A stretch of DNA of 23,307 nt from a virus: positions 1 through 23,307 of IMG/VR virus record IMGVR_UViG_3300048587_000807. One strand, given 5' to 3'. Within the stretch, counting starts at the first letter, position 1. Each line of letters starts with the position of its first letter. Of the stretch, positions 41 to 19,221 are shown piece by piece. A program made the position numbers and the translations under genes. The notes beneath the pieces were generated by a model, which was not told the DNA's origin, made no database searches, and was given only the letters and a program-made list of their open reading frames with translations.

Positions 41-113
<73 letters not shown>

Positions 114-3682: not shown

Positions 3683-3985
3683 CGAGGGTTCCTCGGTATG
3701 CAAAGCAACCGCGCAGCGCCACTGCGGCGCGTTCGGCGTGCCTTGCTCGGGCTCGTCGTCTGTGAAACCGAATCGCGCCCGCTCGAACGCGATCCGTGAT
3801 TGGCGCGCACCGAGCGCGCCGTGCACTTCTCGAATAGGCCCGCCCCCGCCGGGAGACGGAAGCGGACCCGTTTTGTCGCTCCCCCGCCCGGTTTCACAGA
3901 CGACGCGGGGGGCTTACTCGGATCGGAGATCCCCTTCGATCCGAGAATCGACGTGAGGGCATCCCTGCCCTTCACGCCGCGTGAG
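3683..3985. other. Leader region between capsid-2 and replication genes
   Basis: About 300 bases without a convincing gene. A - strand frame opens with GTG at 3975, ten bases after the capsid-2 stop, but its sequence is basic, proline/serine-rich and runs out of frame through the replication gene, so I do not call it. The region carries a long-range 17-bp inverted repeat. It is a plausible place for a promoter or operator driving the replication genes; no good promoter boxes were recognised. Confidence 0.4.
3754..3905. repeat. 17-bp perfect inverted repeat with 118-base spacer
   Basis: CGTCGTCTGTGAAACCG (3754-3770) is the exact reverse complement of CGGTTTCACAGACGACG (3889-3905). The arms lie upstream of the replication gene start at 3682. 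A 17-base perfect match is unlikely by chance in so short a region. It could be a pair of protein-binding sites that loop DNA, a long-range RNA stem in the leader, or a relic of a local inversion. Confidence 0.7.
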
Positions 3986-6088
3986 TCACTCGCCTGCGGA
4001 TTTCACCGCGCCGCGGTAGTCGTTCTGGGCGACTCCGAAGTCGATGCGCGCGCGCCACTTGTGGGCGAACGTGTTGAGAGACTTATCGCGCTCCTCTTCG
4101 GTGCGAGGCGCGGGGAAGGAGCCGCCTTCAGCGCCGAGCACGAACGGAGGGACCGATTCGGGCTTCGCGATCAGATACCACGCCCTCGCCGAGTTGTTTG
4201 GGTACTTCGGAGACGAAAGCCGCGGCTCAACAACGACCTCCGCGGTGCCTCGCCACGGGTTGCTCGAGCCATTCTGTCCGACGTCAGCGGTCAGCTCGAT
4301 CGACTCCATGAGCTGCCTCGCGTACTGCTCGAGCTCCGGCGGAACGACGAGGAAGCCAGGAACCGCGCCCACGGGCTCGCCAGCCTTGTCGACCTGCGCG
4401 CGCATCATCGCGACGGCTTTGCTGAACGAGTCGATTCCGAGAACGCTCTCGCCTCCCGTCATGAGGTTCTTGTTGCCGGCGCTGAAGAATGCCCCGGTGT
4501 TCTTCATGATGAGAGTGAACCACTCGCGAAGCACGGTCTGCGCTGCGCGGTAGCGCATGTTCATGGCCGCTTCGCCGATGACCTGTCCGGCGTTGCCGCG
4601 GATCATGCGCTCGTCGATCGAGAACAGTTCCGCCCATGTGCGCATCGAGATCTTGCGGCCGCCGATGTCGAGCACGCGGTGCTTGACCTCGCCGCCGAGC
4701 GGGACTTCTTCGAAGCCCTTGTTGTCCTCGGTGTCGAGCATGTTGTGCTCGAAGTAGTCAGAGAGAGACACGATTCTTCCGCGCGTCATCGCGACGACCG
4801 GAGCGACCATCGGCTCCCAACCTTGACGCATGACGATGACGGTCGCCCGGTGGAGGGCTTCACTGAAGCCGCTCAGTGTCGAGAAGCCGGATGCCTCAAT
4901 GCGCCGGGGATCCTGGCCGTTGGACTCGGCGAAGTACCTCGCGGCGTCGTAGATGCTCGGCGTGATTGACGCCACCTGGCGAGAAGCCTGGACGGCTCGG
5001 TTTCCGTACCGCTCGACCGCGGCGGTCTCGGCGCCCATCGCGCGAAGCAGGAGCGACCCGATGATCGGATCTTCGCCTTCTTCGAGATTCGCGCTCGCCG
5101 CAACCCGACGAGGCAAGTCGCCCTCATCGCGATCCTGCGCCGACGCGGAGAGACGAAAGGGTTGCGTTCGTCCGTTCCGAGTCTCGTCAAGCAGGCGCTG
5201 ACGCTCGCTCCGACCGGCGATGTCCGAGACGATCTCGAGAATACTGTCCGTCGCATCGTCGAGAGACGTATCCCCGCGGATGACGCTCGCTCGAATCGTT
5301 CGGATTTGCTGCGATGTACGGTCGTCCGGGTTGAGATGATGGAGCCGAGATGCCTCGATCATGCGATCGAATCGCTCGGTCCGCTCGATGACCGCCTGGG
5401 CCGTGTCGACGTCGCCGACGTCGATGGCGTCGTTGCCTACCGCGATGCCACCGGTCGAGCGCGAAGAATCGTTGATCCTCTTGGGGAATGGCACGGTCGA
5501 ACTTCCTTGTCGTTGTGCCGAGCTCTTTCGCTGAGCAACGGCGATGCGTGTGGTGTGGTCAGCGCCGTTCGCGACGAAAGACGCTTCGTTGAGGACGGAT
5601 TCCTCGGCGATGTACACGGGTCCGGTGAATTCCCGACCGTTCACCGTCGCGCGCTGGCCTTGAGGGAGACGAGTTGCCCGTTTCACTTCGAGACCGACGC
5701 TCGCATTCCACTCGAAGCCGTCGAGTGAAGAATCGACGACCTCGCGCGCATGCTCGTTCGCGCCGCTCACGACCCCGCTTATCTTCAGGCTCCGTCCGTC
5801 ATTCTCGATCAGTGTCGCGTGACCGATGACGCGGTTGAAGTCGTGTTCCCGAAGAACAGGGATCTTCTCTCTGAGCGGTTTGACGCCTCTCAGGTCGACA
5901 ACGACAGGAAGATCCCAGCCGATGATTCGCATCGGCCCGCCGTTGTAGGCGACCATGTGAAACTTCCGACGTCGACGCTCGCTTTCGCGGCTCGCCGCGA
6001 TCATCGAGACAGGCTCGCTCTCGCCGATTCGGAGCGACGAGCGATGCGCGTTCGCGTTGATGGGTTGCGAGATGTTCGGAAGTATCAT
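3986..6088 (-). CDS. Prohead protease / major capsid protein fusion (second copy)
   Basis: This 700-aa protein has two joined parts. Residues about 40-200 are a prohead protease of the herpesvirus-assemblin/S78-like kind: FHMVAYNGGPMR, the probable catalytic histidine in LREHDFNRVIGH (H82), and the probable catalytic serine in WNASVGL (S130). The middle is a helical delta/scaffold-like region. Residues about 400-700 are the capsid fold, with SGFSTLSGF, NKNLMTGGESVLGID, QVDKAGEP and a final RIDFGV. All blocks are matched in the fusion at 16912-19221. The ATG at 6088 has TGAGGAA upstream, overlapping the tape-measure stop, so it is coupled to the late operon. A capsid gene after the tape measure is out of place. 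It may be a second shell subunit, a leftover from recombination, or part of a satellite-like module. Its DNA is less GC-rich than the late genes. Confidence 0.85.
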   Translation of the reverse strand: MILPNISQPINANAHRSSLRIGESEPVSMIAASRESERRRRKFHMVAYNGGPMRIIGWDLPVVVDLRGVKPLREKIPVLREHDFNRVIGHATLIENDGRSLKISGVVSGANEHAREVVDSSLDGFEWNASVGLEVKRATRLPQGQRATVNGREFTGPVYIAEESVLNEASFVANGADHTTRIAVAQRKSSAQRQGSSTVPFPKRINDSSRSTGGIAVGNDAIDVGDVDTAQAVIERTERFDRMIEASRLHHLNPDDRTSQQIRTIRASVIRGDTSLDDATDSILEIVSDIAGRSERQRLLDETRNGRTQPFRLSASAQDRDEGDLPRRVAASANLEEGEDPIIGSLLLRAMGAETAAVERYGNRAVQASRQVASITPSIYDAARYFAESNGQDPRRIEASGFSTLSGFSEALHRATVIVMRQGWEPMVAPVVAMTRGRIVSLSDYFEHNMLDTEDNKGFEEVPLGGEVKHRVLDIGGRKISMRTWAELFSIDERMIRGNAGQVIGEAAMNMRYRAAQTVLREWFTLIMKNTGAFFSAGNKNLMTGGESVLGIDSFSKAVAMMRAQVDKAGEPVGAVPGFLVVPPELEQYARQLMESIELTADVGQNGSSNPWRGTAEVVVEPRLSSPKYPNNSARAWYLIAKPESVPPFVLGAEGGSFPAPRTEEERDKSLNTFAHKWRARIDFGVAQNDYRGAVKSAGE

Positions 6089-6097
6089 GAGTGTTCC

Positions 6098-8155
6098 TCA
6101 GACAAAAATGAGCCCGCCGCTTTGCTCGATCATCCGGTTCAGCTTCTCGATCCCGTCCGCCGTGCGCTTCGTGTTGTCGCGCGTTTCGCGCGCATCCCGC
6201 GAGAATTCACGCCCGCCCTGTAGCTCGCGCGAGGAGCCGAATGTGCCCATCGCGCGCAAGCCGCCTGACGCAAATGAGTCAAGTCGATCGAAGAGCGCAT
6301 TCAGTTCAAGCCCGGTGGACATCGAGCCGTTGCTTGAGTTACCGGAGACCAAACCACTGGTCGACCCCGAACGATTCTCCGATTGCTCGAGGAGGCGCTC
6401 GAGCTCCTTCCTCGCTTCGGCCAGCGCGCCTCCCGGCGACTGCTCGTCGGCGGCGTTGGGGTCGTTTGGTCGGTCGAGGATGTCGGCGATGCGCTCGTTG
6501 GCCTTCTCGTCGGCGAGCGCCGACGCCGACGACGAGCGAACCTGCGCGATGCGCTCCACGGCCCGCATGAGACGCTCCTGCGCCTTCTCCAGTTCGGCGC
6601 TGATCTCGGTGGCGGGACGCACGGCCGAGCCGCGGGCGCGCAGCGCATCGCCCATCAGCAGCGCGCTGGTGAGCATGTTCACCTGCTCCTGCGCCGCCTC
6701 GCGCTCGCGCATCGCCTCGCCGAGCTCGATCTGCCGTCGCCGTTCCCCGAGCGGTCCGATGCTGGATTCGGCCCGCGCCTGCGCGTCTGCGGCGACGAGG
6801 CCGACGCCGTCAGCGATCGCGCCGCGCGCCGCGTTGCTCATGCGCACGCCGGGGATCGCCTGCGCGAGCGAACCCGCGTCGAAATCGACGATCGCCTTCT
6901 TGAGCGCTTCCCACTTGTCGCCGAGCGAATCGATCCAGTCGTTCCAGAGTTTCGAGATCGAGTCCTGACCCTCGAGCCACGCCACGCGGAACGTCGCCCA
7001 GAAGATCTCGACGGCGAGCTTCGCGTCGCCCGCCGACAGCGCGTCCATCATCGCCGAGATCGACGCCTGGAAGACCGGGCCGAGGGTCGACCATTCCTCG
7101 CGCAGCACGCGCACCGCCGATGCGCCGGCGCCGCTCCAGGTGACGAACGCCGCCGCGCCGGCGATGGTCAGCGCGCTGACCGCGCCCACCGGCGTGAGGA
7201 GCAGACCGGCCGCGGACGCGATCGCGCCGAACCCCGATCCCACGCCGAAGGCCGCGATCCCGAGCAGCGTGAGCGCCGCGCCGGCGGCGAGCGCGAGTCC
7301 CGACGCGGCGGCGAGTCCGACGACCAGGCCGGGGAACCGCTGCACGACGTCGCCGATGACCTCGACGCCTTCGGCGGCGACGGCGACGACCGGCTCGAGG
7401 ACAGGCAGGAGCGAGCGACCGATCGCGGCGCCGGTGTCGCGGATCTCGCCCTTCAGGCGCTTCCAGAGGTTGGCGAACTGCCCGGCGGTCCGGACGGCGT
7501 CGCCGACCAGCCCCTGGTCGGTCATGGTGCGCAGCAGCACGCCGACGCGCAGGAGCGACTTGGTCATCTCGTCGGCGGTGTGGATGTTGACGTCCATCCC
7601 GCGTCGCATGGCTTCCTGCTCAAGCGCCGCCTCACGGATGTTCACGCCGAACTTGTCGAGGACTTCGGGGCTCCCGGCGAGCGCGCTGATGAAGCGGCGG
7701 AGGGCTTCGTCGTCGCCGATGTTGAAGAACGAGCCGAAGTCGATGGCGAGCGCGGTGAGCGTCTGCGAGAGTTCCTGCGACTCGTCGCGCGTGAAGCCGA
7801 GCCCCACGAAGAACGCCTGGAGCGTCGAGAGCGCGTCGCGCATCTGCGTCTTCGATCGTCCGACCGTCTTGGCCAGTTCGTCGACCCACGCCTCGGCGCG
7901 CTGCGCGTTCTCGCCGAAGACCTGGACGAACTTGTTGTACGTCTCCTGCTCGTCGCTCGCGGCCTTGACCGCCAGGGCGAGCGGACCGCCGATGGACGCG
8001 CCGCCCGCGAACAGACCGGCCCCGACGCGCGTGAGGTTCTGGCCCCACGTCTGGAAACGGCGCTGCGCGGCGCTCAGGTCTTTCTGAAGCCGCGAGCCGT
8101 CGGCGTAGAGCTCGACGAACGCGGCGCCGGCGCGAATCGCTCCCGCGCGAGCCAT
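6098..8155 (-). CDS. Tail tape measure protein
   Basis: This 685-aa protein sets tail length and helps DNA entry. The start is typical of the family: a FVELYADGSRLQKDLSAAQ segment, then VGAGLFAGGASIGGPLALAVKAAS. The middle has a long Ala/Gly/Val-rich hydrophobic region (about residues 265-345). The C-terminal third is helical and charged (about residues 460-600). It ends RDNTKRTADGIEKLNRMIEQSGGLIFV, split here as RDNTKRTADG and IEKLNRMIEQSGG, a common tape-measure ending. It is short for a siphovirus tape measure, implying a short tail. The ATG at 8155 overlaps the preceding stop by one base (TGATG). The 5' part is very GC-rich and the last ~300 bases are not, so a recombination joint probably lies near 6.4 kb. 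Confidence 0.85.
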   Translation of the reverse strand: MARAGAIRAGAAFVELYADGSRLQKDLSAAQRRFQTWGQNLTRVGAGLFAGGASIGGPLALAVKAASDEQETYNKFVQVFGENAQRAEAWVDELAKTVGRSKTQMRDALSTLQAFFVGLGFTRDESQELSQTLTALAIDFGSFFNIGDDEALRRFISALAGSPEVLDKFGVNIREAALEQEAMRRGMDVNIHTADEMTKSLLRVGVLLRTMTDQGLVGDAVRTAGQFANLWKRLKGEIRDTGAAIGRSLLPVLEPVVAVAAEGVEVIGDVVQRFPGLVVGLAAASGLALAAGAALTLLGIAAFGVGSGFGAIASAAGLLLTPVGAVSALTIAGAAAFVTWSGAGASAVRVLREEWSTLGPVFQASISAMMDALSAGDAKLAVEIFWATFRVAWLEGQDSISKLWNDWIDSLGDKWEALKKAIVDFDAGSLAQAIPGVRMSNAARGAIADGVGLVAADAQARAESSIGPLGERRRQIELGEAMREREAAQEQVNMLTSALLMGDALRARGSAVRPATEISAELEKAQERLMRAVERIAQVRSSSASALADEKANERIADILDRPNDPNAADEQSPGGALAEARKELERLLEQSENRSGSTSGLVSGNSSNGSMSTGLELNALFDRLDSFASGGLRAMGTFGSSRELQGGREFSRDARETRDNTKRTADGIEKLNRMIEQSGGLIFV

Positions 8156-8868
8156 CAGGCGACCCTCCGCATGGCGTTGCGATAGAAACCTGGCACGACG
8201 CCGGCAGCGATCGCCTTCGCGAGCGCCGGGGCCATGTACGGGCGGGGTTGGATGCGCACGGTGCGGCGCGACTTCCTCCAGCGGCGCTGCTTGGGATCGA
8301 ACACCGGCGACTCGCTGACCGTCGTCCCGCCGAACTCCATGAGTTCGGGCACGCGGCTCTTGCCCAGGGCGCTGGGGCCGACGACGACGGAGCGCGAGCC
8401 GGGATCGAACGCGTAGAACAGCAGCCGATGCAGCAGCGGGTTGGAGTGGCGGTGGGGCGGGCTTCCCGGCGCGGAGGGCTTGGGGTACCGGATCAGCCCG
8501 CCCTCAACTTTGCGCCAGACGAACTGCCGGTCGTAGACCACCTTGCCGTCGGCGTCGCGGACGTAGCGTCGGCCGTCGGGCTGACGGCGCGGCGCCATGC
8601 TCGGGCGCATGCTGTTGCGCGCCGTCTTGCGGACGTAGCCGCCGCCCTTCGAGAGCGCCTTGCGCGAGGCGTCGTCCATCGAGCGGATCACGAGTTCACG
8701 GTCGAAGAAGAGCCGCTTCGGGATCACGCCGACGCCGAGCGCTCGGTTGACGCCGAACGTGGTGCGCGCCTGCGCGAAGCCCCCGGGGGCGAGGCCGCCC
8801 ACGCGGCGCGGGATCGCGCCGACCCCGAGGGAGCGTCCGATCCTGGATGGCGAGGCGAAACGGGTCAT
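8155..8868 (-). CDS. Tail completion / minor tail protein
   Basis: A 237-aa protein with the pattern of phage tail-completion proteins (HK97 gp10 or lambda gpZ-like, virion morphogenesis). A helix with KALSKGGGYVRKTARNSM is followed by a beta-rich part with RSVVVGP, VPELMEFGG and a C-terminal RIQPRPYMAPALAKAI, the Arg-Pro-[YF]-[ML]-x-PAL motif of this family. It should cap the tail at the head-proximal end. Position between the chaperone and the tape measure is slightly unusual. The N-terminus repeats a short motif twice: SLGVGAIPRR and ALGVGVIPKR, 28 residues apart. The ATG at 8868 is 23 bases after the chaperone stop. The same frame stays open upstream to 9492, but that part is antisense-like arginine/serine repeat and is not protein. 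Confidence 0.7.
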   Translation of the reverse strand: MTRFASPSRIGRSLGVGAIPRRVGGLAPGGFAQARTTFGVNRALGVGVIPKRLFFDRELVIRSMDDASRKALSKGGGYVRKTARNSMRPSMAPRRQPDGRRYVRDADGKVVYDRQFVWRKVEGGLIRYPKPSAPGSPPHRHSNPLLHRLLFYAFDPGSRSVVVGPSALGKSRVPELMEFGGTTVSESPVFDPKQRRWRKSRRTVRIQPRPYMAPALAKAIAAGVVPGFYRNAMRRVA

Positions 8869-8891
8869 GTGGCGGGGGTCGTCGGGGGTCG

Positions 8892-9101
8892 TCAGGGCTT
8901 GGGCGGTTTCCGGGGGCCGCAGACCAGGTCGGTGGCGGCGGCGGCGGAGATCGTGCGTGCGGGTTTCTGTCTCACAACGGGCCTGGGGTAGCGGTGGAAG
9001 TCGGAGGGCTTGAAGCGGCGCTTGGACGAGTGCGCGTTGGCGAAGAGCGCGAGCTGCTCGGCGGCGATGTCCCACTGGGCGCGCAGTCGCCCGAGGGTCA
9101 T
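8892..9101 (-). CDS. Tail assembly chaperone, T-like part (-1 frame)
   Basis: The frame ending at the TGA at 8892 encodes a chaperone T-part: REFWSGVYERAGVLGL, then YTLRELEWMTLGRLRAQWD, then LALFANAHSSKRRFKPSDFH. The conserved part begins well before the first usable ATG at 9101, which itself overlaps the upstream stop as ATGA. The residues from REFW onward, covering roughly 9180-9102, can only be made by ribosomes moving -1 from the upstream chaperone frame. In that upstream frame the same DNA encodes Ser/Pro-rich filler. The lambda G/GT arrangement is the known precedent. No classic slippery heptamer was recognised. The coordinates given are those of the independently startable part (69 aa); the frame is open to 9443. 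Confidence 0.6.
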   Translation of the reverse strand: MTLGRLRAQWDIAAEQLALFANAHSSKRRFKPSDFHRYPRPVVRQKPARTISAAAATDLVCGPRKPPKP

Positions 9102-9625
9102 CCACTCGAGTTCGCGCAGGGTGTAGGGGTCGGGGCAGAGTCCGAGGACTCCGGCTCGTTCGTAGACGCCGGACCAGAACTCGCGGGCGGCGACGTCCGG
9201 CTCCTGAGCGCGCTGTCGATCGCCTTGTCGAGCGTGCCGTCCTGCGCCGCCTCGATCGCGCGCTTCGCCGCTTCCTCGATCCGGAGTTCTCCCCGATCCC
9301 GCCACGCGGCGAGGGCCGCGCGCTGGCTCGGGGACGGGCAGAAAGAGATGAGGCACTCCTCGAACGCCTTGATCGCACCCCACAGCGCGTCGCCGTAGAG
9401 CGATTCGCCGAACTGCTCGTCGGTGACGCCGCGCTGTTCGCACTGCTCGCGCACGAGCACATAGAGCACGTTGACGAAGCGCACCGGATCATCGAGCAAC
9501 TGCCCCATGCCCAGGGGCGAGAGCGCCTTCGCCAGGTCGTACTGGAGCGCGTCGCGGACGCGCTTCAGCGCGCCGACCGTGAGCGCGAGCGTGTACTCGT
9601 GCTCGCCTGCCTTGAACGTCGCCAT
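9098..9625 (-). CDS. Tail assembly chaperone, G-like part
   Basis: A 175-aa protein starting MATFKAGEHEYTLALTVGALKRV, a common opening of phage tail chaperones that bind the tape measure before tube assembly. Residues 1-130 look conserved (GMGQLLDDPVRFVNVLYVLV, then ALWGAIKAFEECLISF). The last ~35 residues (SRTSPPASSGPASTNEPE onward) are low-complexity, because the real coding seems to continue in the -1 frame (see the T-like part). The ATG at 9625 has GGAG seven bases upstream. It lies between the tail tube and the tape measure, the canonical place. Confidence 0.75.
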   Translation of the reverse strand: MATFKAGEHEYTLALTVGALKRVRDALQYDLAKALSPLGMGQLLDDPVRFVNVLYVLVREQCEQRGVTDEQFGESLYGDALWGAIKAFEECLISFCPSPSQRAALAAWRDRGELRIEEAAKRAIEAAQDGTLDKAIDSALRSRTSPPASSGPASTNEPESSDSAPTPTPCANSSG

Positions 9626-9676
9626 AGTGTCGCTCCGGTTCGTGGATGGAGGAACGCGCGGGGCGCGCAGCGGTGA

Positions 9677-10300
9677 TCAGCCCTCATTGACGCCGGGAAG
9701 CGCGGCTTCCTGCTCGGCGACCTCCGCCGCTTCGGCGGCCTGCTTCTCGGCGGCGTCCATCGGGTGGACCTCCGCGGCTTCGGCGGGCTCGTTCGTCGGG
9801 GCTTCGGACGCGACGGGGTCTGCGGGGGCGTCGGGGGTGTCGGGGGCGCCGGGGGCCGAGGCGGTGTTCTTGAGCGTCATCGACGCGATCGATCCGCCGG
9901 TGACGCGCTGGGGCGCGGTGGTGGGGCGCAGCACGACGTTGCGCGTGACGGCTTCCTCGAGGGGCTCGTTCTGGGTGACTTCGAAGACGTCGTAGTCGGC
10001 CTCCCAGCCGTTGCCGCTGGCGCTGGGTCCGTCGAGGAAGCGCATCTTGATGGGCGTGCCGGAGTCGAACGCCTCGTCGATGGCGGCGACGTCGGCGTCG
10101 CCCGCTTCGAGCATCTGGGTGAACGAGACCTCCATGTCCTTCAGCGCCGCCCGCCGCGTGCGCCACCCTTCGTTGGATCGGCGGCTGGTGTTGGCCTCGC
10201 TCTTGGTGAGGCCGAGGGTGAGTTCGCTGACGTTGCCCATTTCGACGAACGAGGGGTCGACGAAGCGGAACGCCTTCATTTCGAGACCGAGCAGGATCAT
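9677..10300 (-). CDS. Major tail tube protein
   Basis: A 207-aa protein of the siphovirus tail-tube type. It has the usual pattern: MKAFRFVDPSFVEMGNVSEL, a central MEVSFTQMLEAGDADVAAID followed by FDSGTPIKMRFLDG, then WEADYDVFEVTQNEPLEEAV and NVVLRPT, a beta-sandwich fold. Residues 150-207 form an acidic Pro/Ala/Glu-rich tail (APDTPDAPADPVAS, then EAAEVAEQEAALPG) that probably is not part of the tube core and may be a surface decoration. The ATG at 10300 has GGGAG upstream. A 51-base gap with a small GC hairpin follows, as expected for an abundantly made protein separated from the less abundant chaperone. Confidence 0.75.
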   Translation of the reverse strand: MILLGLEMKAFRFVDPSFVEMGNVSELTLGLTKSEANTSRRSNEGWRTRRAALKDMEVSFTQMLEAGDADVAAIDEAFDSGTPIKMRFLDGPSASGNGWEADYDVFEVTQNEPLEEAVTRNVVLRPTTAPQRVTGGSIASMTLKNTASAPGAPDTPDAPADPVASEAPTNEPAEAAEVHPMDAAEKQAAEAAEVAEQEAALPGVNEG

Positions 10301-10324
10301 GGCGGATCTCCCGTGGGGTGCGCG

Positions 10325-12937
10325 TCAGCGCGTGCGTGATCGGGTGGCGGGCTGGCTTCCGGTGCGCGCGAGGAGCAGGGCCCGGTCGCCCTCGCTCGCG
10401 CGGAGTTCGATGGTCGAGGCGTCGATCGAGCCCAGGTCGATCACGGCGCCGGGGTCGAGGTCGATGGCGTCGTCGGGCGCGCTCGCGACGCGCAGGCCGA
10501 GGGGGTCTGCGTTCGACGGCGCCGCGGCGAGGACGACGCCCGCGCGAAGCGGATCGGGATAGGGCTTCACCCACGCGGTCCCCGGCGCCTCGCCGAGCAC
10601 GGACGCGGGAACAAGCGCGAACGCGCCGCCGATGGACGGTTGGGACGGCGTGTCCGACGTCGGCGTGAACGCGTTGAGCGAGACCGTGCGCAGCAGTGTC
10701 GAGTCCAGGTCGCTCGGCGGGTCGTCGGGATCGAAGTCGGCGTTGAAGAGCTCGAGCGTGAGCGAGCCGTCAACCCCGTACCGCGCGCGTCCGGTGCGCC
10801 GCTGGTGGCGCTGGTCCTGCAACTCGCCGCCGGTCGTGAGTCCAGGTCCTCCGGCGGCGGGTCCAACCCAGCCGGGCCGACCGTCGGCGGTGACGACCGC
10901 CTCGATCGACGCGAGGTTCGGACGCGCAGCCAGCGCGATGAGCATCGTGCTCGACAACGACCCGCCCGCGAACTCGCCGAGCACCTTGGGGTGCGTCGCC
11001 GAAGGGGTCGGATACCACCAGGGCAGGTGCGCGTCGCCTACGTAGACGATCACGCTCTGCACGCTGGCGTTGGCTTCGAGGTCGTCGAGGATCGTGTCGC
11101 GCTCGCCGCGCCACGTCGCGCGATCGTGCCAGTCCTGGAGCGGCTTGTACACCGCGTCGAACATCGGCTGGGGGGAGTACAACACGACGTGCTTCGCCGT
11201 GGTCGTCTGGCAGAGGTTGCGCAGCCAGGCGAGCTGCGTCGCGCCGAGCTTCGTGCCGTTGACGTTGGCGTAGCGGTACGGGTCGAGGGCGACGTGGAGG
11301 ATCGGCCCGGTCTGCTTCGCCGAGTACATCGGCGGGTACGGGTCGGCGCCCTGCGCCGGAGCGCCGATCAGTCCGGGCTGATACACCTTCGCGAGGAAGT
11401 CGTTCCCTCGATTGTGCATCTCGCCGCGCGTCATGGTTCCCCACTCGCCGCCGACCTCAGCGCCGTCACCGGCCCAGCCCGGAACCCACGAGTTGTCCCA
11501 GACGTGATCGCTCACGCCGCTGAGTCTCCACGCGGGGATCCGCGCAAAGAGATCGCTGAACGACGCGCTCTCCCACAGCATGCGCTGGGAGACCGCGACG
11601 CCGAGCCCGCTCCCGGCGGGCATCGCCGAGCCGTAGTCCGGCGGCGCGTTCGCGTCCTGCGGATAGGTCAGCGCGTCGGCCGTGTCGGGCTCGCGATCGT
11701 CGGAGTACAGCTCATCTTCGATCAGCGCGCCGATCGTGTCGCGCGCGGGGTCAATCGCCTGCCCGACGACGCGCCACCAGTCGGGGACGCCGCGCCCGTA
11801 CCCCTTCATGCAGTAGCCGAGGAGGATGTCGATCGGTCGCGCGAGGTTCGCGTCGCCCGGCGCCGAGCCGACCGGCTTCACCTCGTAGATGCCGCTGGTC
11901 CAGCTGTTGGCGGGCGCGCTCTCGGCGTCCTGGATCACGACCTTCGCCATCACCTTGTGCGCCGGATCGGCGGGCGCGCCGAAGGGAATCGCGTGGTGCG
12001 CGAAGTACAGCGATCCGACGGTGTGCTCCAGCGCGGCGGTCGTGTTCGCCGAGCCATCCCCGGGCCAGGTGTCGCCGATCGCCCAGAGCACCCGCGACCA
12101 GGTCTCGGCGTAACCCAGCCGACCGGGGAACTCGGAGACGATCATCTTCGCCTGGTCGTGCACCACGTCCGCCCAGTGCGCGAGGCCCGGGGGCTTGCCG
12201 CCGGGAGACCACGCGGAGAAATCGAACGCGGCGGCGGGGTTCGCGACTCTGCCCGCGCGCACCCAGTGCTTGTAGAGCCACTTCCCGGGCGCCTGCCCCG
12301 CGCTCAGGGCGGCGACCTCGTTGCGCGTCGTGAAGTCGTACGTCGAGATGTTCTCGGTGCGGACGTGGTTCGTGAAGCCGGCGGGGAGCGTGACTTCCTG
12401 CCCGTCGATCCAGACGCGCAGCGCGGGCGTGACGCCGGCGATCCCCGACTTGGCGTAGTACACGCGCAGCGTGTGCACGCCGGTCGAGACGTTGATGCCG
12501 CCGGGGATCGTGACGAGCGCGGCGACCTGGCCGGTCATGAACACGCGGATCTGCGTGGCCGACGAGAACTGGATGTTGACGAAGGTCACGTCGCCAGCGG
12601 CGTAGAGCGCGCAAACCATGTCGCGCACGCCGCCGGTCCAGAGGCCCGCAGTCGACTCGTACTCGAACTCCCAGACGCAATCGACGATGCCGATGTTCTG
12701 GATGCCCGCCGTCGGCGCAGACTCGTCGCCGTCGCGCATGTACTTGATCGTGTGTCGCATCGCCGACCGGCTCTGCACCACGGCGGCGTCGGCGAGTTTG
12801 AGCAGCACGCCCTGGCGCCCGGAGGGCGCTGTGGCGAGCGAGGGCGCAACGCCGTTGTTCGTGATCTGGCGGAAGCCGTAGTGCCGAGCCAGGTCGTTCG
12901 CGTAAACGATCGGCGTGTCGCATCCGACGCTGGGCAT
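10325..12937 (-). CDS. Large structural protein with PhoD-like phosphatase core
   Basis: An 870-aa protein. Residues 1-230 are beta-rich and resemble a concanavalin-type sugar-binding sandwich (GVHTLRVYYAKSG, ALRVWIDGQEV). Residues about 300-665 keep the order of a PhoD-type metallophosphatase: EDELYSDD (407-414), SDHVWDN (476-482), LDPYRY (551-556), LGATQLAWL (564-572), WRGERDTIL (609-617) and VGDAH (633-637). Several metal ligands differ from the usual GDQxYxD and DDHD forms, so activity is uncertain. Residues about 771-862 match the whole 90-aa protein at 15189-15461. The ATG at 12937 has an excellent GGGAGGAG site and overlaps the peptidase stop by one base (TAATG). There is no signal peptide, so it is probably a virion or lysis-stage protein. 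It may act on phosphate esters of the host surface or extracellular matrix; this is inferred. Confidence 0.65.
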   Translation of the reverse strand: MPSVGCDTPIVYANDLARHYGFRQITNNGVAPSLATAPSGRQGVLLKLADAAVVQSRSAMRHTIKYMRDGDESAPTAGIQNIGIVDCVWEFEYESTAGLWTGGVRDMVCALYAAGDVTFVNIQFSSATQIRVFMTGQVAALVTIPGGINVSTGVHTLRVYYAKSGIAGVTPALRVWIDGQEVTLPAGFTNHVRTENISTYDFTTRNEVAALSAGQAPGKWLYKHWVRAGRVANPAAAFDFSAWSPGGKPPGLAHWADVVHDQAKMIVSEFPGRLGYAETWSRVLWAIGDTWPGDGSANTTAALEHTVGSLYFAHHAIPFGAPADPAHKVMAKVVIQDAESAPANSWTSGIYEVKPVGSAPGDANLARPIDILLGYCMKGYGRGVPDWWRVVGQAIDPARDTIGALIEDELYSDDREPDTADALTYPQDANAPPDYGSAMPAGSGLGVAVSQRMLWESASFSDLFARIPAWRLSGVSDHVWDNSWVPGWAGDGAEVGGEWGTMTRGEMHNRGNDFLAKVYQPGLIGAPAQGADPYPPMYSAKQTGPILHVALDPYRYANVNGTKLGATQLAWLRNLCQTTTAKHVVLYSPQPMFDAVYKPLQDWHDRATWRGERDTILDDLEANASVQSVIVYVGDAHLPWWYPTPSATHPKVLGEFAGGSLSSTMLIALAARPNLASIEAVVTADGRPGWVGPAAGGPGLTTGGELQDQRHQRRTGRARYGVDGSLTLELFNADFDPDDPPSDLDSTLLRTVSLNAFTPTSDTPSQPSIGGAFALVPASVLGEAPGTAWVKPYPDPLRAGVVLAAAPSNADPLGLRVASAPDDAIDLDPGAVIDLGSIDASTIELRASEGDRALLLARTGSQPATRSRTR

Positions 12938-13755
12938 TACTCGCTCCTCCCGAAGTTGCTCAGCACGTTGTTGACCTGATCGAACTCGCCCGCGAGCGCG
13001 AGGTTGAGGTCGTGGAAGTCGACGCGCCCGTCGCCGTTGAGGTCGCCTTTCAGGGGCGGGATGAATCGTCCCGCCGCGACGATGATCGCCTCGGCGTTGA
13101 CCGGACCCCACGGCCTGCCGAGTTGACGCATCTTGCTGGTGAGCGTCGGTCGGTAGATGCCGGTTCGTCGTTCGGCGCCTCCCTCAAACACACCGACGAC
13201 GCCGCCCATGCCGTCCGGCTGGCCGATCAGGTGCGACCACTTCACGGTCGCGGGATCGCTCTCGATATCGAGATTGGGAGACGGAGGATTACCGCCCGTG
13301 TACGCTCCCGAGCCGCTGTACTCGTCGCCGAGTCCGCCGATCGCGTGACCGAGAAACTCGTGCTTCAGCAGTTCGGCGAAATGGACATTGCGGGCCGCAG
13401 CGTAGGCGACGTTCACCATCGTGTTGCGCCCACCACCAAAGTGCGATGTGTTGATGAGCACCATAACAGCGTCGTAGTATCCGACGGCATTGGCGGTGTG
13501 CCACGCGATAGTGCGACCGAGGTTCAGGCGGAGATTGTTGTTGGGGTGGATGTAGGCGCCGAACGCCGTGTCGCCGGACGAGCCATTGGGGACCACGTCG
13601 GTGTTCGATGGCGTGAAGATCGTGCGCGTCTGCATCCGCCGAACGACGTGCCCGACCTCGGGATCAGACGCAAGAATGTTCAGAGCGCGGGCCGCGTCGT
13701 CGAGGAACGATGCCTCGTCGGTGTACGCGTCGCCGGTGATGTAGATGGTGTTCAT
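12937..13755 (-). CDS. M64-like metallopeptidase with dockerin-like C-terminus
   Basis: A 272-aa protein. It opens with IYITGDAYT, the usual first strand of M64 peptidases, and has YDAVMVLINTSHFGGG before the metal site KHEFLGHAIGGLGDEY (residues 121-136), with H122, E123, H127 and D134 as likely zinc-site residues. The spacing is HExxxH, one residue longer than the classical HExxH. A later RTGIYRPTLTSKMR matches the family's closing motif. Residues 237-272 are a calcium-binding, dockerin-like repeat (DLNGDGRVDFHDLNLAL), common in planctomycete secreted proteins. No signal peptide is present. The ATG at 13755 overlaps the upstream 32-aa gene as ATGA. The gene is clearly poorer in GC than its neighbours, suggesting separate acquisition. 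It may cut host surface protein during adsorption or release. Confidence 0.8.
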   Translation of the reverse strand: MNTIYITGDAYTDEASFLDDAARALNILASDPEVGHVVRRMQTRTIFTPSNTDVVPNGSSGDTAFGAYIHPNNNLRLNLGRTIAWHTANAVGYYDAVMVLINTSHFGGGRNTMVNVAYAAARNVHFAELLKHEFLGHAIGGLGDEYSGSGAYTGGNPPSPNLDIESDPATVKWSHLIGQPDGMGGVVGVFEGGAERRTGIYRPTLTSKMRQLGRPWGPVNAEAIIVAAGRFIPPLKGDLNGDGRVDFHDLNLALAGEFDQVNNVLSNFGRSE

Positions 13756-13850
13756 CGCAGGGCGCTCCAGACCGCGACCGCGACGACCACGGCGAGCGCG
13801 CCGATGACGAGCAGGTCGGTCGTCGAGATGCGGCGTGAAGTGAGACGCAT
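13752..13850 (-). CDS. Small single-pass membrane peptide (32 aa)
   Basis: This ORF encodes a basic N-terminus (MRLTSRRISTTD) followed by an uninterrupted hydrophobic helix (LLVIGALAVVVAVAVWSAL) and stops at once. The TGA overlaps the M64 start as ATGA, strong evidence that it is translated. The N-in basic segment fits the positive-inside rule. It lies in the lysis-like cassette between the coiled-coil lipoprotein and the peptidase, so it may be an accessory holin, an antiholin or a spanin-like partner. No family is recognised. Confidence 0.65.
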   Translation of the reverse strand: MRLTSRRISTTDLLVIGALAVVVAVAVWSALR

Positions 13851-13866
13851 GGTGTGGCTCGGGAAG

Positions 13867-13917
13867 GCCCGCCGCTTGCGCCCCTTGCGGGGGTGAGCGA
13901 CGTGGCAAGCGGCGGGC
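13867..13917 (-). repeat. Strong hairpin upstream of the membrane peptide/M64 genes
   Basis: GCCCGCCGCTTGC (13867-13879) and GCAAGCGGCGGGC (13905-13917) form a 13-bp perfect stem with a 25-base loop. It is in the untranslated gap between the lipoprotein and the 32-aa gene. No T-tract follows on the - strand, so it is not a textbook terminator. An attenuator, an RNase-processing site or an mRNA-stabilising stem is more likely. Confidence 0.65.
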
Positions 13918-13925
13918 GGAGGAAT

Positions 13926-13947
13926 CCGCGCGCGTCATGGCGCGCGG
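13926..13947 (-). repeat. Second hairpin after the lipoprotein gene
   Basis: CCGCGCGC (13926-13933) and GCGCGCGG (13940-13947) form an 8-bp perfect stem with a 6-base loop, 16 bases after the lipoprotein stop. With the larger stem at 13867-13917 it makes a double hairpin in the only real gap in this part of the operon. Confidence 0.5.
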
Positions 13948-13963
13948 CGACGAGAGCGATCGA

Positions 13964-14866: not shown

Positions 14867-15192
14867 CGGGATTCCTCCTTGGCGCGGCCGATGAGCCGCT
14901 GCATGTGCGATTCGAACATCGAGAACTGGCGCTCGATCTGCTTGTCGTGGTGCTCGCGCTCGCGATCGAGCTGCTTGGCGAAGAACTGGCGCTCGCGCTC
15001 GAGTTGGTCGGCGAAGAAGACCCGCGCCTCCTTGCCCTCCTGCTCCATGCGGTCGACGGCTTCGCTCAGCCCCTTCGTGAGGTTGGGCCAGCCCGTCGTG
15101 ATGAGCCAGCGCACCAGGTAGACCGCGACGAGCAACAGCGCCACGCCGAGCCCGCCGTCGAGCAACACCTTCGTGAGCGCCTGGTCGGTCAT
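14863..15192 (-). CDS. Holin-like membrane protein with hendecad coiled coil
   Basis: A 109-aa protein with one N-terminal membrane helix (about residues 11-31, GGLGVALLLVAVYLVRWL) and a charged helical tail. The tail has three clear 11-residue repeats, FFADQLERERQ (59-69), FFAKQLDRERE (70-80), HHDKQIERQFS (81-91), and a degenerate fourth. The shape matches BhlA/UviB-type holins: a short N-terminal anchor and a coiled coil. It would form membrane lesions or anchor a lysis complex. The ATG at 15192 overlaps the preceding stop as ATGA, and its own stop overlaps the lipoprotein start the same way. A non-lytic membrane scaffold cannot be excluded. Confidence 0.6.
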   Translation of the reverse strand: MTDQALTKVLLDGGLGVALLLVAVYLVRWLITTGWPNLTKGLSEAVDRMEQEGKEARVFFADQLERERQFFAKQLDREREHHDKQIERQFSMFESHMQRLIGRAKEESR

Positions 15193-15461
15193 CGTCCGAC
15201 CCTCGCGATGAGGTGGATCGAGTCGCCCTCGGCCCCGCTGATCTCGATGCGCGACAGGTCCTGCACGCCGATGTCGGCGCGGACGCCGGCGGGCCAGTCG
15301 ACGCCGACCCCCGGTTCGCCGTCGAAACGGATCTTGATCGGCGACGCGTTGGCGGCGGGCGCGAGCAGCGTCGCGTCGGCGACGACGGACTCCTCGCTGA
15401 GTTTCGCCCAGCCGCTCGCGGCGGGCGCGTCGATCTTGGTGACGACGAGCGCTCCTGGCAT
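15189..15461 (-). CDS. Phage protein homologous to the C-terminal domain of the PhoD-like protein
   Basis: A 90-aa beta-rich protein of no named family. Over its last 52 residues it aligns without gaps to the C-terminus of the 870-aa protein encoded at 10325-12937, with 19 identities by my count, for example SPIKIRFDG versus DPLGLRVAS and AEGDSIHLIARVG versus SEGDRALLLARTG. The first part also matches loosely (ALVV, then W-x-K). It may be a small decoration or neck protein, and the larger protein may use the same domain to dock on the virion. The ATG at 15461 overlaps the neck gene stop (TGATG); a GTG one codon earlier is possible. Confidence 0.65.
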   Translation of the reverse strand: MPGALVVTKIDAPAASGWAKLSEESVVADATLLAPAANASPIKIRFDGEPGVGVDWPAGVRADIGVQDLSRIEISGAEGDSIHLIARVGR

Positions 15462-15895
15462 CACAGACTCCCTCGGCGGTAGGTGATCGTGAACGAGTGC
15501 GCGTACGTCTTGGCCCCCTGCACGGCGTTGGGGTCGAACGGATCGCCCTCGACGACGTCGACCGACGTGAACCCGTCCGGCCGCGCGTCGCGCAATCGCG
15601 ACTCGATCGCCTCGGCGAGTTCGTCGAGGGTGTCGAGGCGCTCCTTGTCGGCGCGGTTCGCGGGCGCGAACACGATCACCGTGATGTCCACCTCCGGCTG
15701 CCAGTCCCGGCGCGAGACGCGCCGCTTGCGCACCTGCGAGCCGATCACGAGCACCACGGGGACGGTCTGCGCGCGGTGGCGCACCCAGTTGGCCGCCTCG
15801 TTCTCGCCGCGCACTTCAGGAGAGAGCGGCAGAGGGTCGCCGGAGGTCAGCGCGGCGACGCACGCGTCGCGGACGGTCTCACGCAGGGCGCTCAT
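15461..15895 (-). CDS. Head-tail connection / tail terminator-like protein
   Basis: A 144-aa protein. It starts MSALRETVRDACVAAL, has a middle strand pair QTVPVVLVIGSQVRKRRVSRR, then PEVDITVIVFAPANRADKE, a helix LDTLDELAEAIESRL, and ends AHSFTITYRRGSL. This alpha/beta order matches phage tail terminators and tail-completion proteins (lambda gpU-like). It lies between the other neck protein and the genes leading to the tail tube. The ATG at 15895 overlaps the upstream stop as ATGA; the longer open frame to 16330 is arginine-rich shadow sequence. The role is assigned by fold pattern and position. Confidence 0.6.
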   Translation of the reverse strand: MSALRETVRDACVAALTSGDPLPLSPEVRGENEAANWVRHRAQTVPVVLVIGSQVRKRRVSRRDWQPEVDITVIVFAPANRADKERLDTLDELAEAIESRLRDARPDGFTSVDVVEGDPFDPNAVQGAKTYAHSFTITYRRGSL

Positions 15896-16374
15896 TCGCC
15901 ACCCCCGAACTCCGCCGGCTCGCCGCCTCCGAGCGGCCCTTCCGCGGGCTCGAGGTTCTCCTCGATCGAGACGCGCACCGTGTGCACGCGCATGCGCGTG
16001 TGCGAGGGGTCGCAGAAGCGCCACGCCGGCTCGCCGTCGCGCGCCGAGACGCGCCAGCGCGTGAGCGCGCCCGCCGCATCGAGCATGTCGATCTCGTGGG
16101 TCTCCTCCGGCTCGAAGCGCTCCGGCGCCCCGGGCCCGAAGGTCAGATCCGCCGGATCGATCAGGAAGTCGCGGGCCTCGACGTGCTGGAAGGTCGCGCC
16201 GCTCATCGACATCGACTCGTCGGGGCGAACCGGCGCGATCGTCGCCTGAATCGCCGCGGAGGCGGGCGGCGGGTCGGCGTCGACGGGCCCGAGCCGGTAG
16301 ACGATCTCCGACGACAGGAACGCCTTGCATTCGTCGCTGAGGGTCGCCAGGGCTTCGGACAGGACGTCGGGCAC
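15892..16374 (-). CDS. Head-tail joining protein (neck)
   Basis: A 160-aa protein. An N-terminal helix (LSEALATLSDECKAF) is followed by a beta-rich body with IQATIAPVRPDESMSMS, VEARDFLIDPADLTFG and THEIDMLDAAGALTRWRVS, a pattern of phage head-closure/adaptor proteins that seal the portal. The C-terminus (EPAEGPLGGGEPAEFGGGE) is acidic, glycine-rich and probably flexible. It lies after the cement gene and before the tail terminator, the normal place. A 94-base gap with a GC hairpin precedes it. The family is not certain. Confidence 0.55.
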   Translation of the reverse strand: MPDVLSEALATLSDECKAFLSSEIVYRLGPVDADPPPASAAIQATIAPVRPDESMSMSGATFQHVEARDFLIDPADLTFGPGAPERFEPEETHEIDMLDAAGALTRWRVSARDGEPAWRFCDPSHTRMRVHTVRVSIEENLEPAEGPLGGGEPAEFGGGE

Positions 16375-16413
16375 GGTTCGCTTCTCGCGCGAGTGGTGTC
16401 GGAGTTCGTGAAT

Positions 16414-16444
16414 GGCGCGCGCCCGCGCGAGGCGGACGCGCGCC
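16414..16444 (-). repeat. GC hairpin between cement and neck genes
   Basis: GGCGCGCG (16414-16421) and CGCGCGCC (16437-16444) can form an 8-bp perfect stem with a 15-base loop. It lies in the untranslated gap after the cement gene. No T-tract follows; it may tune expression between abundant and rare structural proteins. Confidence 0.45.
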
Positions 16445-16468
16445 GGATCGAGAAACGGGGTATGTCGA

Positions 16469-16816
16469 TCACGCCGCGCCGGGCGTGAGCTTCACGCGCA
16501 CCGTCGCGTCGCCGTCGGCGGCGGCGACGGCGGCGTTGCCGATCTTCTTGTTGGCGCCCGAGCCGTCGGTGTTGGTCGCGCGGCTGTTGCCCGCGTCCCA
16601 GAAGACGTCGGCGCCGGCGGCGAACGCGGTGCCGCCCGTGGTCGCCTTCGTGATGTCGAAGACGCCCTCGACGGCGAGCGCGCCGAGTTGGTTGGCGGGA
16701 AGGTCGATCTCCGCGACGCCGAAGAGATCGCCCTGGAGGACGACGGTCCCGGCGGCGACGTCGGCGCCGGGCGTGTAGTCGATCTTGTGGCCTTCGCTGA
16801 CTCGGGTGGCTGGCAT
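16469..16816 (-). CDS. Capsid cement protein (DUF2190-like)
   Basis: A 115-aa beta-rich protein. The order of short motifs matches the DUF2190 decoration family: an opening H-x-I-D-Y-TPGADVAAGTVVLQGDLFGV, here HKIDYTPGADVAAGTVVLQG, then ANQLGALAVEGVFDITKA, an ADVFWDAG segment, and a closing GDATVRVKLTPGA. Members stud the outside of phage heads and stabilise the shell. It lies directly downstream of the major capsid gene, as usual. The ATG at 16816 lies 96 bases after the capsid stop, in its own transcript segment, fitting a protein made in high copy. Confidence 0.8.
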   Translation of the reverse strand: MPATRVSEGHKIDYTPGADVAAGTVVLQGDLFGVAEIDLPANQLGALAVEGVFDITKATTGGTAFAAGADVFWDAGNSRATNTDGSGANKKIGNAAVAAADGDATVRVKLTPGAA

Positions 16817-16869
16817 GGGCTGTCTCCGTGGAGTGGATCGGGGTCCGGCTCTGGTGCGGGAAAGCCGCG

Positions 16870-16889
16870 GCGCGGCGGGTGGGCCGCGC
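16870..16889 (-). repeat. GC hairpin between capsid and cement genes
   Basis: GCGCGGC (16870-16876) and GCCGCGC (16883-16889) form a 7-bp stem with a 6-base loop, about 25 bases after the capsid stop. It is weak taken alone but repeats the pattern of GC stems in the real gaps of the late operon. Confidence 0.4.
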
Positions 16890-16911
16890 GGCGGTGGGTG
16901 TCATGGAGGAA

Positions 16912-19221
16912 TCAGCCGCCGGCGTTCTTCTGCGCGGCGCGGGGCTCTTCGGTGTCGACGCCGAAATCGAAGACGTTGCGCCACTGCATCCCGAGCGTGG
17001 CGAAGTCGGTCTCCGCGCTCTGCAGCACGGGGCGGCGCTGGCCGCGCAGGTACGAGATGCGGATGGCCGGAACGTCCGCGGGATCAGCGAAGAGGTACCA
17101 GGCAGTGTCGCTGCCGCCGGGGATGAAGCCGTTGGCGTCGAGCATCGGGCTCGCGACGGGGCGGAACTTGCCCTTGTGCGGGTTGCTCGCGGGCTTCGGC
17201 GCGTTCTCGCTCGTCGTCTCGTTGACGTAGGTGTCGGTGAAGAGCTGCTCGGCGTAGGTCTCCAGCGCCGCGGGCACGAGCAGGATCGAGGGGCGGAGCA
17301 TGATCGGCTGGCCCGCCTTGTCCGCCTGCTTGCGGAACGCGGCGCGCGCCTTCGTGAGCCCGTCGATGCCGAGCACGGATCCCGCGCCCGAGAGCAGGTT
17401 CTTGTTGCCGACGCTGAAGAAGTTGCTCGGGTTGCTGATGAGCAGGCGGAAGACGGCGTATTCGAGCGCGAGCGCCGCCTGGCGGCCGAGGATCGCGGGG
17501 AGTTGCAGGAACGCCCCGAGGTCGTCGTTGATCATCATCACGCGCGTGAGCGTGACCATCTTGGCGTGGGTCTTCACGCGGCTGGGGAAGCCGTCCTCAT
17601 CCAGCGACGTGTGCTTGATCTCGCCGGTGGGCCCGACCTCTTCGAGCACGCCGACGCCGGTCAGCCGGTAGCGCGTGGTGGTCTTGAAGTCGACGTTGTC
17701 GCCGACGCCGCAGAACTGCGACGAGGCCATGTCGACGGCGAGGAACGACTGGAGCAGCTGCTTGTTGGCGACGTTGCTCAGGACGCCCGAGAGCGAGAGC
17801 GTCGAGAACCCGCTCGAGGCGCGGATGAACGCGCTCTGCGCGGCCAGCTGCGAGTCGGCGTGGAGCGCGGCCCGGATCGTGTCGTCGTCGATGCGTCCGG
17901 GCCGGACGTATCCGCCGGCGGCCTCGATGGTCGCGTAGATGAGTTGTGAGAGCGTCGCGCCGCGATGCTCGCGGCTCATCGCCGCGTTGATCGTGTTCTG
18001 ATCGAAGCCGTCGGGGTTCTGCGCGCTCGCGGCGACGGCCTGCATGCCGATGCCGCCGGCCATGCACAGCGAGGCCGTGAGCACCGCGACCGGGTTGGGA
18101 CGACCGCTCTGCCCCGTCGACGCGGGAAGGCCGGTTCCCGAATCGCCCGTGAAGCCCCCGCCCATCCCTCCGGGTGCCAGGCGGAACGAACGGCTGGCGC
18201 GCACGTTGGCGAGTTCGACGGCGTCGCGCACGCGGTTGAGGTCCCAGCGCTCGCTGACCGCCTGGGCGCGGATCTCCGGGTGGTTCGCGGCCAGCGCGTT
18301 GACCTCGGCGATGTGCTGCGCCTCGGCGAGCACGTTCGCGTTGTTCTGCGCGAGGACCTGCTGCACCGCCTCAAGCGTGAGCGGCGATCCGCCCTGACCG
18401 TTGGATGCCGTGATGGCGCCGGCGATCGCGGCGTCGCTCTGCGCGCCTGTGGCGGCGCCGGTCGCCCCGGTCGCGTTGCTCGCGTTCACCGTTCCCGACG
18501 CCCCCGAGGCGCCGGAACCGGCGCCTCCGGAGTTCGCGGCGGCCTGCTCGGCGTCGAACTTCGCCTGGAGGAACGCGATCGCTTCGGCGGTGAGGTTGTC
18601 GTACTCAAAGCCCTTCGCCTTGAGCCACTTCTTGAACTGTTCCATCGTGGGATCTCCCGTGTGCGCGTGCGCGAGGGCAACGCTGGTGTCGTCGTCCGCG
18701 CCGAGCGCGACGAAACTGGACTCGAAGAGCACGCCCTCGCGGACGACGTACGCGGGGCCGGCGACCTGTTTCCCGTTGACCTCGACCGTGGCGCCCTGGG
18801 CGACCTCGTCGACGCGCAGCGGCTGCACGCCCACGCTCGCCTGCCAGGGAAAGCCGTTGCGCGACGACTCGACGACCTCGCGTGAGAGCGCGCTGGCGCC
18901 GGAGATCACGCCCTCGATGACGAGATTCGCGCCGACGACGGTGATCGAGGTGGTGTGGCCGACGATCTGGTCGCGCCGGTGGTCGCGCAGGATCGGACGC
19001 GGCTTGTCGATGCCGCGCAGGCCCCGAAGATCGAGCACGACCGGACGCGAGAACCCGACGCGCATCGGACCGCCCGTGTACGCGACCATGCGGAAGCGGC
19101 GGAGCGCCGAATCGCTCTCGCCCTGGCGGGCTTCGATCCACTCGACGCTGACGCGCTCGGCGCGCACCTGATCCCCGGGCTTCGGCGCGTTCGCGAGGAT
19201 CATGGGCGGGAGTTCACTCAT
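16912..19221 (-). CDS. Prohead protease / major capsid protein fusion (first copy)
   Basis: A 769-aa fusion in the canonical place after the portal. Residues about 20-170 are the prohead protease: FRMVAYTGGPMR, the probable catalytic histidine in LRDHRRDQIVGH (H81) and the serine in WQASVGV (S129). Residues about 190-330 are a scaffold-like delta region with an Ala/Gly/Ser/Thr-rich stretch (GSGASGASGTVNASNATG) and coiled-coil-like segments. From about residue 400 the capsid fold follows, with SGFSTLSLS, NKNLLSGAGSVLGID and DFATLGMQWRNVFDFGV. Such fusions are known in some phages: one polyprotein supplies protease, scaffold and shell subunit and is cut during maturation. The ATG at 19221 overlaps the portal stop as ATGA and has GGGAGG upstream. 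It is the best candidate for the main shell protein. Confidence 0.9.
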   Translation of the reverse strand: MSELPPMILANAPKPGDQVRAERVSVEWIEARQGESDSALRRFRMVAYTGGPMRVGFSRPVVLDLRGLRGIDKPRPILRDHRRDQIVGHTTSITVVGANLVIEGVISGASALSREVVESSRNGFPWQASVGVQPLRVDEVAQGATVEVNGKQVAGPAYVVREGVLFESSFVALGADDDTSVALAHAHTGDPTMEQFKKWLKAKGFEYDNLTAEAIAFLQAKFDAEQAAANSGGAGSGASGASGTVNASNATGATGAATGAQSDAAIAGAITASNGQGGSPLTLEAVQQVLAQNNANVLAEAQHIAEVNALAANHPEIRAQAVSERWDLNRVRDAVELANVRASRSFRLAPGGMGGGFTGDSGTGLPASTGQSGRPNPVAVLTASLCMAGGIGMQAVAASAQNPDGFDQNTINAAMSREHRGATLSQLIYATIEAAGGYVRPGRIDDDTIRAALHADSQLAAQSAFIRASSGFSTLSLSGVLSNVANKQLLQSFLAVDMASSQFCGVGDNVDFKTTTRYRLTGVGVLEEVGPTGEIKHTSLDEDGFPSRVKTHAKMVTLTRVMMINDDLGAFLQLPAILGRQAALALEYAVFRLLISNPSNFFSVGNKNLLSGAGSVLGIDGLTKARAAFRKQADKAGQPIMLRPSILLVPAALETYAEQLFTDTYVNETTSENAPKPASNPHKGKFRPVASPMLDANGFIPGGSDTAWYLFADPADVPAIRISYLRGQRRPVLQSAETDFATLGMQWRNVFDFGVDTEEPRAAQKNAGG

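Follow-up and report, generated by a model that had tools for sequence, protein, structure and literature searches.

Capsid genes of satellites and fusion phages

Phage satellites with a capsid gene of their own are known mainly from Proteobacteria and Firmicutes, and the roles of these genes are mostly unsettled. One group, the cf-PICIs, is defined by the possession of its own head genes and the lack of tail genes. Gram-negative PICIs, such as EcCICFT073 and PmCI172, are small integrated satellites with an integrase, AlpA and replication genes and, often, one major capsid protein (MCP) gene; the latter is found in 21 of 29 reference PICIs and, in the tested case, it is unnecessary for helper-assisted transfer (PMC6092414, PMC10111431). 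Their gene order starts from an inward-pointing integrase at one end and continues with AlpA, primase and a late zone (PMC10111431). In one case the satellite, PICI 11capE, is embedded in its helper, prophage 50icd, and the capsid genes of both are found in one integrated unit (PMC10111431). In SaPIbov5, Ccm is a satellite homologue of the phage phi12 MCP, which takes the pentamers and changes prolate into small isometric shells (PMC8569155).

Capsid proteins fused to a protease are present in phages such as Stenotrophomonas S1, Pseudomonas F10 and Bordetella PBb001 (phrog_4523, phrog_133), where the fusion gene lies between the portal and decoration genes; known members of this broad capsid family carry one copy. 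The window, i.e. the whole stretch of 23,307 nucleotides analysed here (IMG/VR record IMGVR_UViG_3300048587_000807), contains two copies belonging to the same broad family, MCP1 and MCP2. The planctomycete protease profile does not detect the protease half in seven of eight sampled fusion phages, and a weak match is seen in Pd_22F. We consider it probable, at roughly 0.62, that the window is a prophage late operon fused to the capsid, replication and integration half of a satellite, and that MCP2 belongs to a lineage found in elements lacking portal and terminase.

The locus differs from each of the described systems. Compared with Gram-negative PICIs, the planctomycete MCPs are protease fusions and the hosts are Planctomycetota; the window integrase points outward at a tRNA, the capsid gene comes first and the integrase last, an order other than that of PICIs, and a phage late operon is attached. 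As in 11capE/50icd, the satellite-like genes run in the direction of the late genes; differently from 11capE, whose own att sites lie within a late gene of the helper, att sites are found only around the whole element, and the helper distal-tail genes are gone. The presence of tail tube and tape measure genes also sets the element apart from the cf-PICIs. MCP2, as a putative satellite-encoded MCP homologue, is likened to Ccm, which offers a working model by analogy.

Two capsid genes in one prophage

MCP1 (16912-19221, minus strand, 769 aa) and MCP2 (3986-6088, minus strand, 700 aa) are both complete fusion genes, as the first-pass annotation had claimed, with an N-terminal maturation protease and a C-terminal HK97 capsid domain in one frame. 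Phage_capsid_4 is matched with E=2.7e-42 by MCP1 and E=4.8e-29 by MCP2; both also match Mu-like gpT, phrog_4523 'major head and protease protein' and phrog_3244 'head maturation protease', and are thus members of the protease and major capsid fusion family (phrog_4523/Phage_capsid_4). By BLASTP, the two protease halves are 48% identical over 145 aa (E=9e-39) and the capsid halves 34% over 309 aa (E=5e-36), and every motif previously listed as shared by the two proteins was found. The catalytic His and Ser, reported as kept, are indeed invariant in a 54-sequence alignment (His82 and Ser130 in MCP2 numbering) and present in MCP1. An AlphaFold model of MCP2, built with this alignment as input, has a mean pLDDT of 79, mostly above 90 in the protease and capsid halves, and predicts a protease, a helical linker and an HK97 capsid domain. 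Foldseek relates the model to the HK97, D3 and SaPI1 capsids and to encapsulins with probability 1.00, while a PDB sequence search with MCP2 gives no match, the likeness being visible by fold search only; the capsid assignment, for which a structure prediction had been proposed as the check, stands.

In a planctomycete phage family, genes of the MCP1 kind are the ordinary capsid genes, and MCP1 is found among the canonical series of terL, zinc ribbon, small gene, portal, MCP, decoration, tube and tape measure genes, an order kept in dozens of relatives; family matches, synteny and the capsid tree agree in assigning it to the phage-type clade. On the minus strand, the window contains the large terminase gene terL (21433-23286, PF20454 E=1e-14), which runs past the window, and those for the portal protein (19218-20798, PF05136 E=6.7e-57), the head decoration protein (16469-16816, phrog_122 E=1.2e-19), the major tail (tube) protein (9677-10300, phrog_1407 E=5.8e-6 and synteny), a conserved tail protein recognized by synteny, with a homolog in 90 loci (9098-9625), and the tape measure protein (6098-8155, phrog_28 E=7e-16), whose C-terminus is typical of the family by comparison. 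Two further genes, for an M64 (IgA peptidase) family protein with a dockerin-like end (12937-13938, E=1e-17) and for a 928-aa protein whose PhoD-like phosphatase match falls slightly short of the Pfam cut-off (10325-13111, E=4e-6), are placed between the head and tail-tube genes and have no homologs in related loci. In some relatives (L020:11754-13122 and L113:12008-12729) the decoration-protein gene is found in two or three tandem copies after the capsid gene.

Beyond MCP2, and again on the minus strand, the window encodes a replication initiation protein (2768-3826, phrog_9474 E=2.5e-13), a probable helicase loader (2281-2817, a weak phrog_2289 match, E=0.011), an AlpA/excisionase-type HTH protein (2060-2323, phrog_66 E=1.6e-6; PF05930 E=0.007, below the Pfam cut-off), a zinc-ribbon protein (1471-1869) and a tyrosine integrase aimed at the tRNA (140-1468, PF00589 E=2.4e-16; phrog_1 E=5e-45). 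The C-terminal domain of the replication protein shares 40-59% identity with replication genes of 24 viral contigs, in all of which a capsid gene of the MCP family is absent near the homolog. The zinc-ribbon gene near the integrase is one of two in the window, the other (21120-21413) being close to terL; since the former, with a weak Pfam match, resembles the terL-adjacent zinc-ribbon genes of phage-type relatives, it is possibly another head-region gene that was duplicated in the prophage.

Integration occurred at a tRNA-Lys (CTT) gene (41-113, plus strand; ARAGORN, Rfam). The 49-bp att repeat at this tRNA end, next to the integrase (67-115), has an exact copy at the other prophage end, at positions 55-103 of L007, a separate IMG/VR record that is identical to the window at 4236 of 4236 bases, reaches beyond the terminase and contains the complete terL (L007:3267-5576); a 33-base part of the repeat was found in no IMG/VR contig besides L007. 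The same repeat at the integrase side and in L007 indicates that the whole element is a tRNA-Lys prophage of about 26.8 kb from att to att. Both capsid genes lie between the sites of a single att pair, with a single integrase, which counts against a random assembly chimera and is still compatible with a misjoin of tandem elements; the tRNA-Lys repeat is absent between MCP2 and the tape measure gene and is present only at the outer ends. At the left end of the prophage, L007 encodes a fused phage DNA-adenine-methylase-like and GNAT-like protein (532-2058), followed by a ParB-like gene.

A second full copy on the same piece was found in none of about 200 related loci, 24 viral records and 43 genomes at phage-like spacing, nor in any of the 59 matching genomes out of 392 sampled from the phylum. 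Apparent double copies at L043 and L073 proved to be overlapping frames of one gene. An exact-peptide search of IMG/VR detected no close relative of MCP2, and no MCP2 ortholog was found.

Origin of the second capsid protein

Viral contigs, species genomes and a sample of Planctomycetota were scanned, giving about 220 capsid sequences. A one-residue deletion in the capsid half is shared by MCP2 and 25/25 satellite-type MCPs, and it occurs in 0/166 phage-type and 0/8 outgroup sequences. The EPRL motif is present in 22/25 satellite-type and 0/166 phage-type sequences; it is also found in 4/8 outgroup phages, hence it may be ancestral. MCP2 has both the deletion and EPRL, MCP1 neither, and at the positions that separate the two clades MCP2 mostly agrees with the satellite-type one. 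In the capsid tree, MCP2 groups with the portal-less clade (support 98/99 when rooted on known phages, 100/99 without outgroup), and the rooted tree places MCP1 among phage-type sequences. The shared clade-specific deletion and the unconstrained grouping with MCPs of att-bounded elements lacking portal and terminase support the earlier suggestion of a satellite-type capsid module.

The MCP2 branch is by far the longest (1.8-1.97), and its capsid half has at most 36% identity to anything. With the outgroup included, the AU test finds a position of MCP2 beside the outgroup equally good (p=0.52); a grouping of MCP1 with MCP2 is not rejected with the outgroup (p=0.136) and is rejected without it (p=0.015), and a position inside the MCP1 clade is rejected (p=5e-5). 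The tree of the protease half leans to MCP1 plus MCP2 (82/82), not significantly. The capsid tree by itself is not decisive on the origin of MCP2, and the discrete characters help. Judged from these sequence characters, MCP2 is very probably not a duplicate of MCP1.

Portal-less elements in Planctomycetota

Among loci with more than 2.5 kb of upstream sequence, a portal gene is present in 120/120 of the phage type and in 0/8 of the other clade (Fisher p=7e-13), the satellite-type set having been picked partly by capsid similarity and the portal absence noticed afterwards; further retrieved loci agree. Neither portal nor terminase was found in the portal-less elements by profiles built from phage-type loci and by Pfam and PHROGs scans, applied to the genes of the selected elements only. 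Several of these elements are bounded by direct repeats at RNA genes: a tRNA-Thr in L168 (56 bp, 9.9 kb), a tRNA-Gln in L244 (48 bp, 11.0 kb) and ssrA (tmRNA) in L250 (4075-14875) and L249 (29 bp; 10.8 and 11.4 kb). A further ssrA element, L243, has an att repeat of 16 bp; the three ssrA elements are about 10-12 kb, and in all of them a sigma-70-like gene, possibly for a late-specific sigma factor, is directly upstream of the capsid gene.

A frequent layout comprises a small HTH-like gene, a sigma-like gene (Sigma70_r2 E=1.3e-8), the protease-MCP gene, a DUF3987 helicase/primase and an integrase, while other portal-less elements carry Prim-Pol, ParB-like, methylase, topoisomerase or AAA genes. 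Purifying selection acts on the MCPs of these elements, with dN/dS of 0.02-0.16. The first-pass annotation had proposed to regard the second copy as a remnant if relatives never carry it and selection on it is relaxed: phage-type relatives never do carry it, but purifying selection maintains this kind of MCP in the other element family. From their gene content the portal-less elements look like phage satellites and, apparently, they form an undescribed planctomycete family; no paper that combines planctomycete, prophage and phage satellite turned up in the literature searched, and a search that included the major capsid protein yielded only unrelated ones. In L244 (8581-13110) a tape-measure gene (TMP_3 E=4e-16) comes after the protease-MCP gene, and in L259 (9635-13882) a gene without family match is in a like position after the MCP gene; satellites of this type may determine the size of the head as well as the length of the tail. 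In one genome (G231) the same portal-less capsid element is found twice, at two chromosomal sites (L241 and L242), with equal match scores.

The order of capsid, replication, HTH and integrase genes toward the tRNA or ssrA is the same in the window (6088 down to 41) as in L168 and L159. The DUF3987 helicase/primase of L250 and L168 has no counterpart in the window, where the replication protein is of the phrog_9474 type. The portal-less elements have neither portal nor terminase inside their att sites, whereas portal, terL and tail genes are all present in the window element; therefore only MCP2, and not the whole prophage, is assigned to the portal-less family.

The junction at the tape measure gene

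MCP2 does lie after the tape measure gene, as previously noted: it starts 9 nt after the tape-measure stop, and a GAGGA-type ribosome site overlaps that stop. Relatives have at this place distal-tail genes that are 52-78% identical to one another; no match to them was found in the window or in L007. The tape measure gene is instead followed by MCP2, the replication initiator, the probable helicase loader, the AlpA-like HTH gene, the second zinc ribbon, the integrase and the tRNA-Lys. GC3 is 0.84-0.96 in most of the tape measure gene and 0.68-0.83 in its last 85 codons, making that end ambiguous; it is 0.77 in MCP2 and 0.57-0.73 from the replication gene to the integrase. No second contig spanning the junction between tape measure and MCP2 was found, and likewise none for the integrase, the junction being known from one contig. 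The lack of distal-tail genes means that the element is probably unable to make complete tails alone. The idea of a relic of recombination, advanced in the first annotation, finds support for the join, where GC3 drops at MCP2 and conserved distal-tail genes are gone.

Proposed assembly of a composite element

In the reading that we prefer, the terminase side and the middle of the element would be a normal planctomycete phage late operon with MCP1, and the right end, with MCP2, replication protein, helicase loader, AlpA-like HTH, integrase and tRNA, would be a satellite-like half, attached where the tape measure gene stops and replacing the distal-tail genes. If the MCP2 end derives from such a half, MCP2 would come from the MCP lineage of the small elements without portal and terminase, which would have to obtain both from a helper phage. 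Two routes could lead to this order. A satellite and a prophage may have been in tandem at the same tRNA-Lys, and a deletion from the left part of the satellite to the tape-measure stop of the prophage would have kept the outer att sites; otherwise, a satellite may have captured the late genes of its helper, as in elongated PICIs (PMC10111431), with the same resulting order. MCP2 would be produced together with the late proteins, coupled in translation to the tape measure, and would be, now or in its source, a capsid-redirecting subunit that builds the shell or restricts it to satellite size, the helper portal, terminase and tail being used with it. By analogy with SaPIbov5 Ccm, MCP2 probably works, or worked, by changing capsid size. 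The shell of two subunit types and the size-switching capsid, both named in the first annotation, may be functions of this kind, for which Ccm is the precedent. The element itself is perhaps a hybrid that depends on a helper, perhaps a dead fusion.

The latter, a degraded prophage that remained after a deletion between prophage and neighbouring satellite, with MCP2 devoid of current function, is an unlikely but serious alternative. The missing distal-tail genes, the composition step at the join, the occurrence in one contig only and the length of 26.8 kb, against 32-53 kb in several phage-type viral records, all fit such decay, which does not explain why MCP2 keeps an intact frame of 700 codons, the protease residues, the predicted HK97 fold, a good ribosome site and the 9-nt coupling, why the replication, AlpA and integrase genes are intact, or why the join falls exactly between two genes. 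That the element is instead a working phage-satellite hybrid, in which a phage-type and a satellite-type capsid subunit are both made from the late operon of a single genome, the latter sets or switches capsid size, for example by occupying the pentamers, and another phage supplies the distal-tail parts, seems doubtful.

An assembly chimera, in which the contig joins phage and satellite contigs that are not neighbours in nature, is improbable. It would account for the composition step near the join, for the distal-tail genes missing there and for the want of a second contig across it; conversely, the same 49-bp tRNA-Lys repeat occurs at the integrase end and, in the independently assembled L007, at the terminase end, and the tape measure ends normally, with MCP2 starting 9 nt on in the same direction. 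Two elements in tandem at the same tRNA could still have been misjoined. A functional phage with a shell of two subunits or two sizes, built from MCP1 and MCP2 and evolved in the phage lineage itself, appears more improbable still: both genes are intact and in the same direction, MCP2 is coupled to the tape measure gene, and SaPIbov5 and phi12 provide an example of shells in which two capsid homologues are mixed (PMC8569155), but MCP2 has satellite-clade characters, no phage-type relative has a second copy and the distal-tail genes are missing. Finally, an old, fast-diverged duplicate of MCP1 is hardly credible, since the 48% identity of the protease halves, the weak 82/82 grouping and the AU value of 0.136 with outgroup are outweighed by a capsid half that lacks phage-clade characters and has the satellite-type deletion, and by rejection of the grouping without outgroup (p=0.015) and of MCP2 as a member of the MCP1 clade (p=5e-5).

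Biological implications

Satellite MCPs and composites with two capsid genes were already known; new are a planctomycete group with protease-fused MCPs and one fused prophage with both kinds. Att-bounded portal-less elements of Planctomycetota keep a protease-capsid fusion under strong purifying selection, which opens a route to establish whether a satellite capsid protein replaces, caps or shrinks the helper shell. The fused prophage bears on how satellites and phages interconvert; if it were a working hybrid, it would be a natural intermediate between the two.
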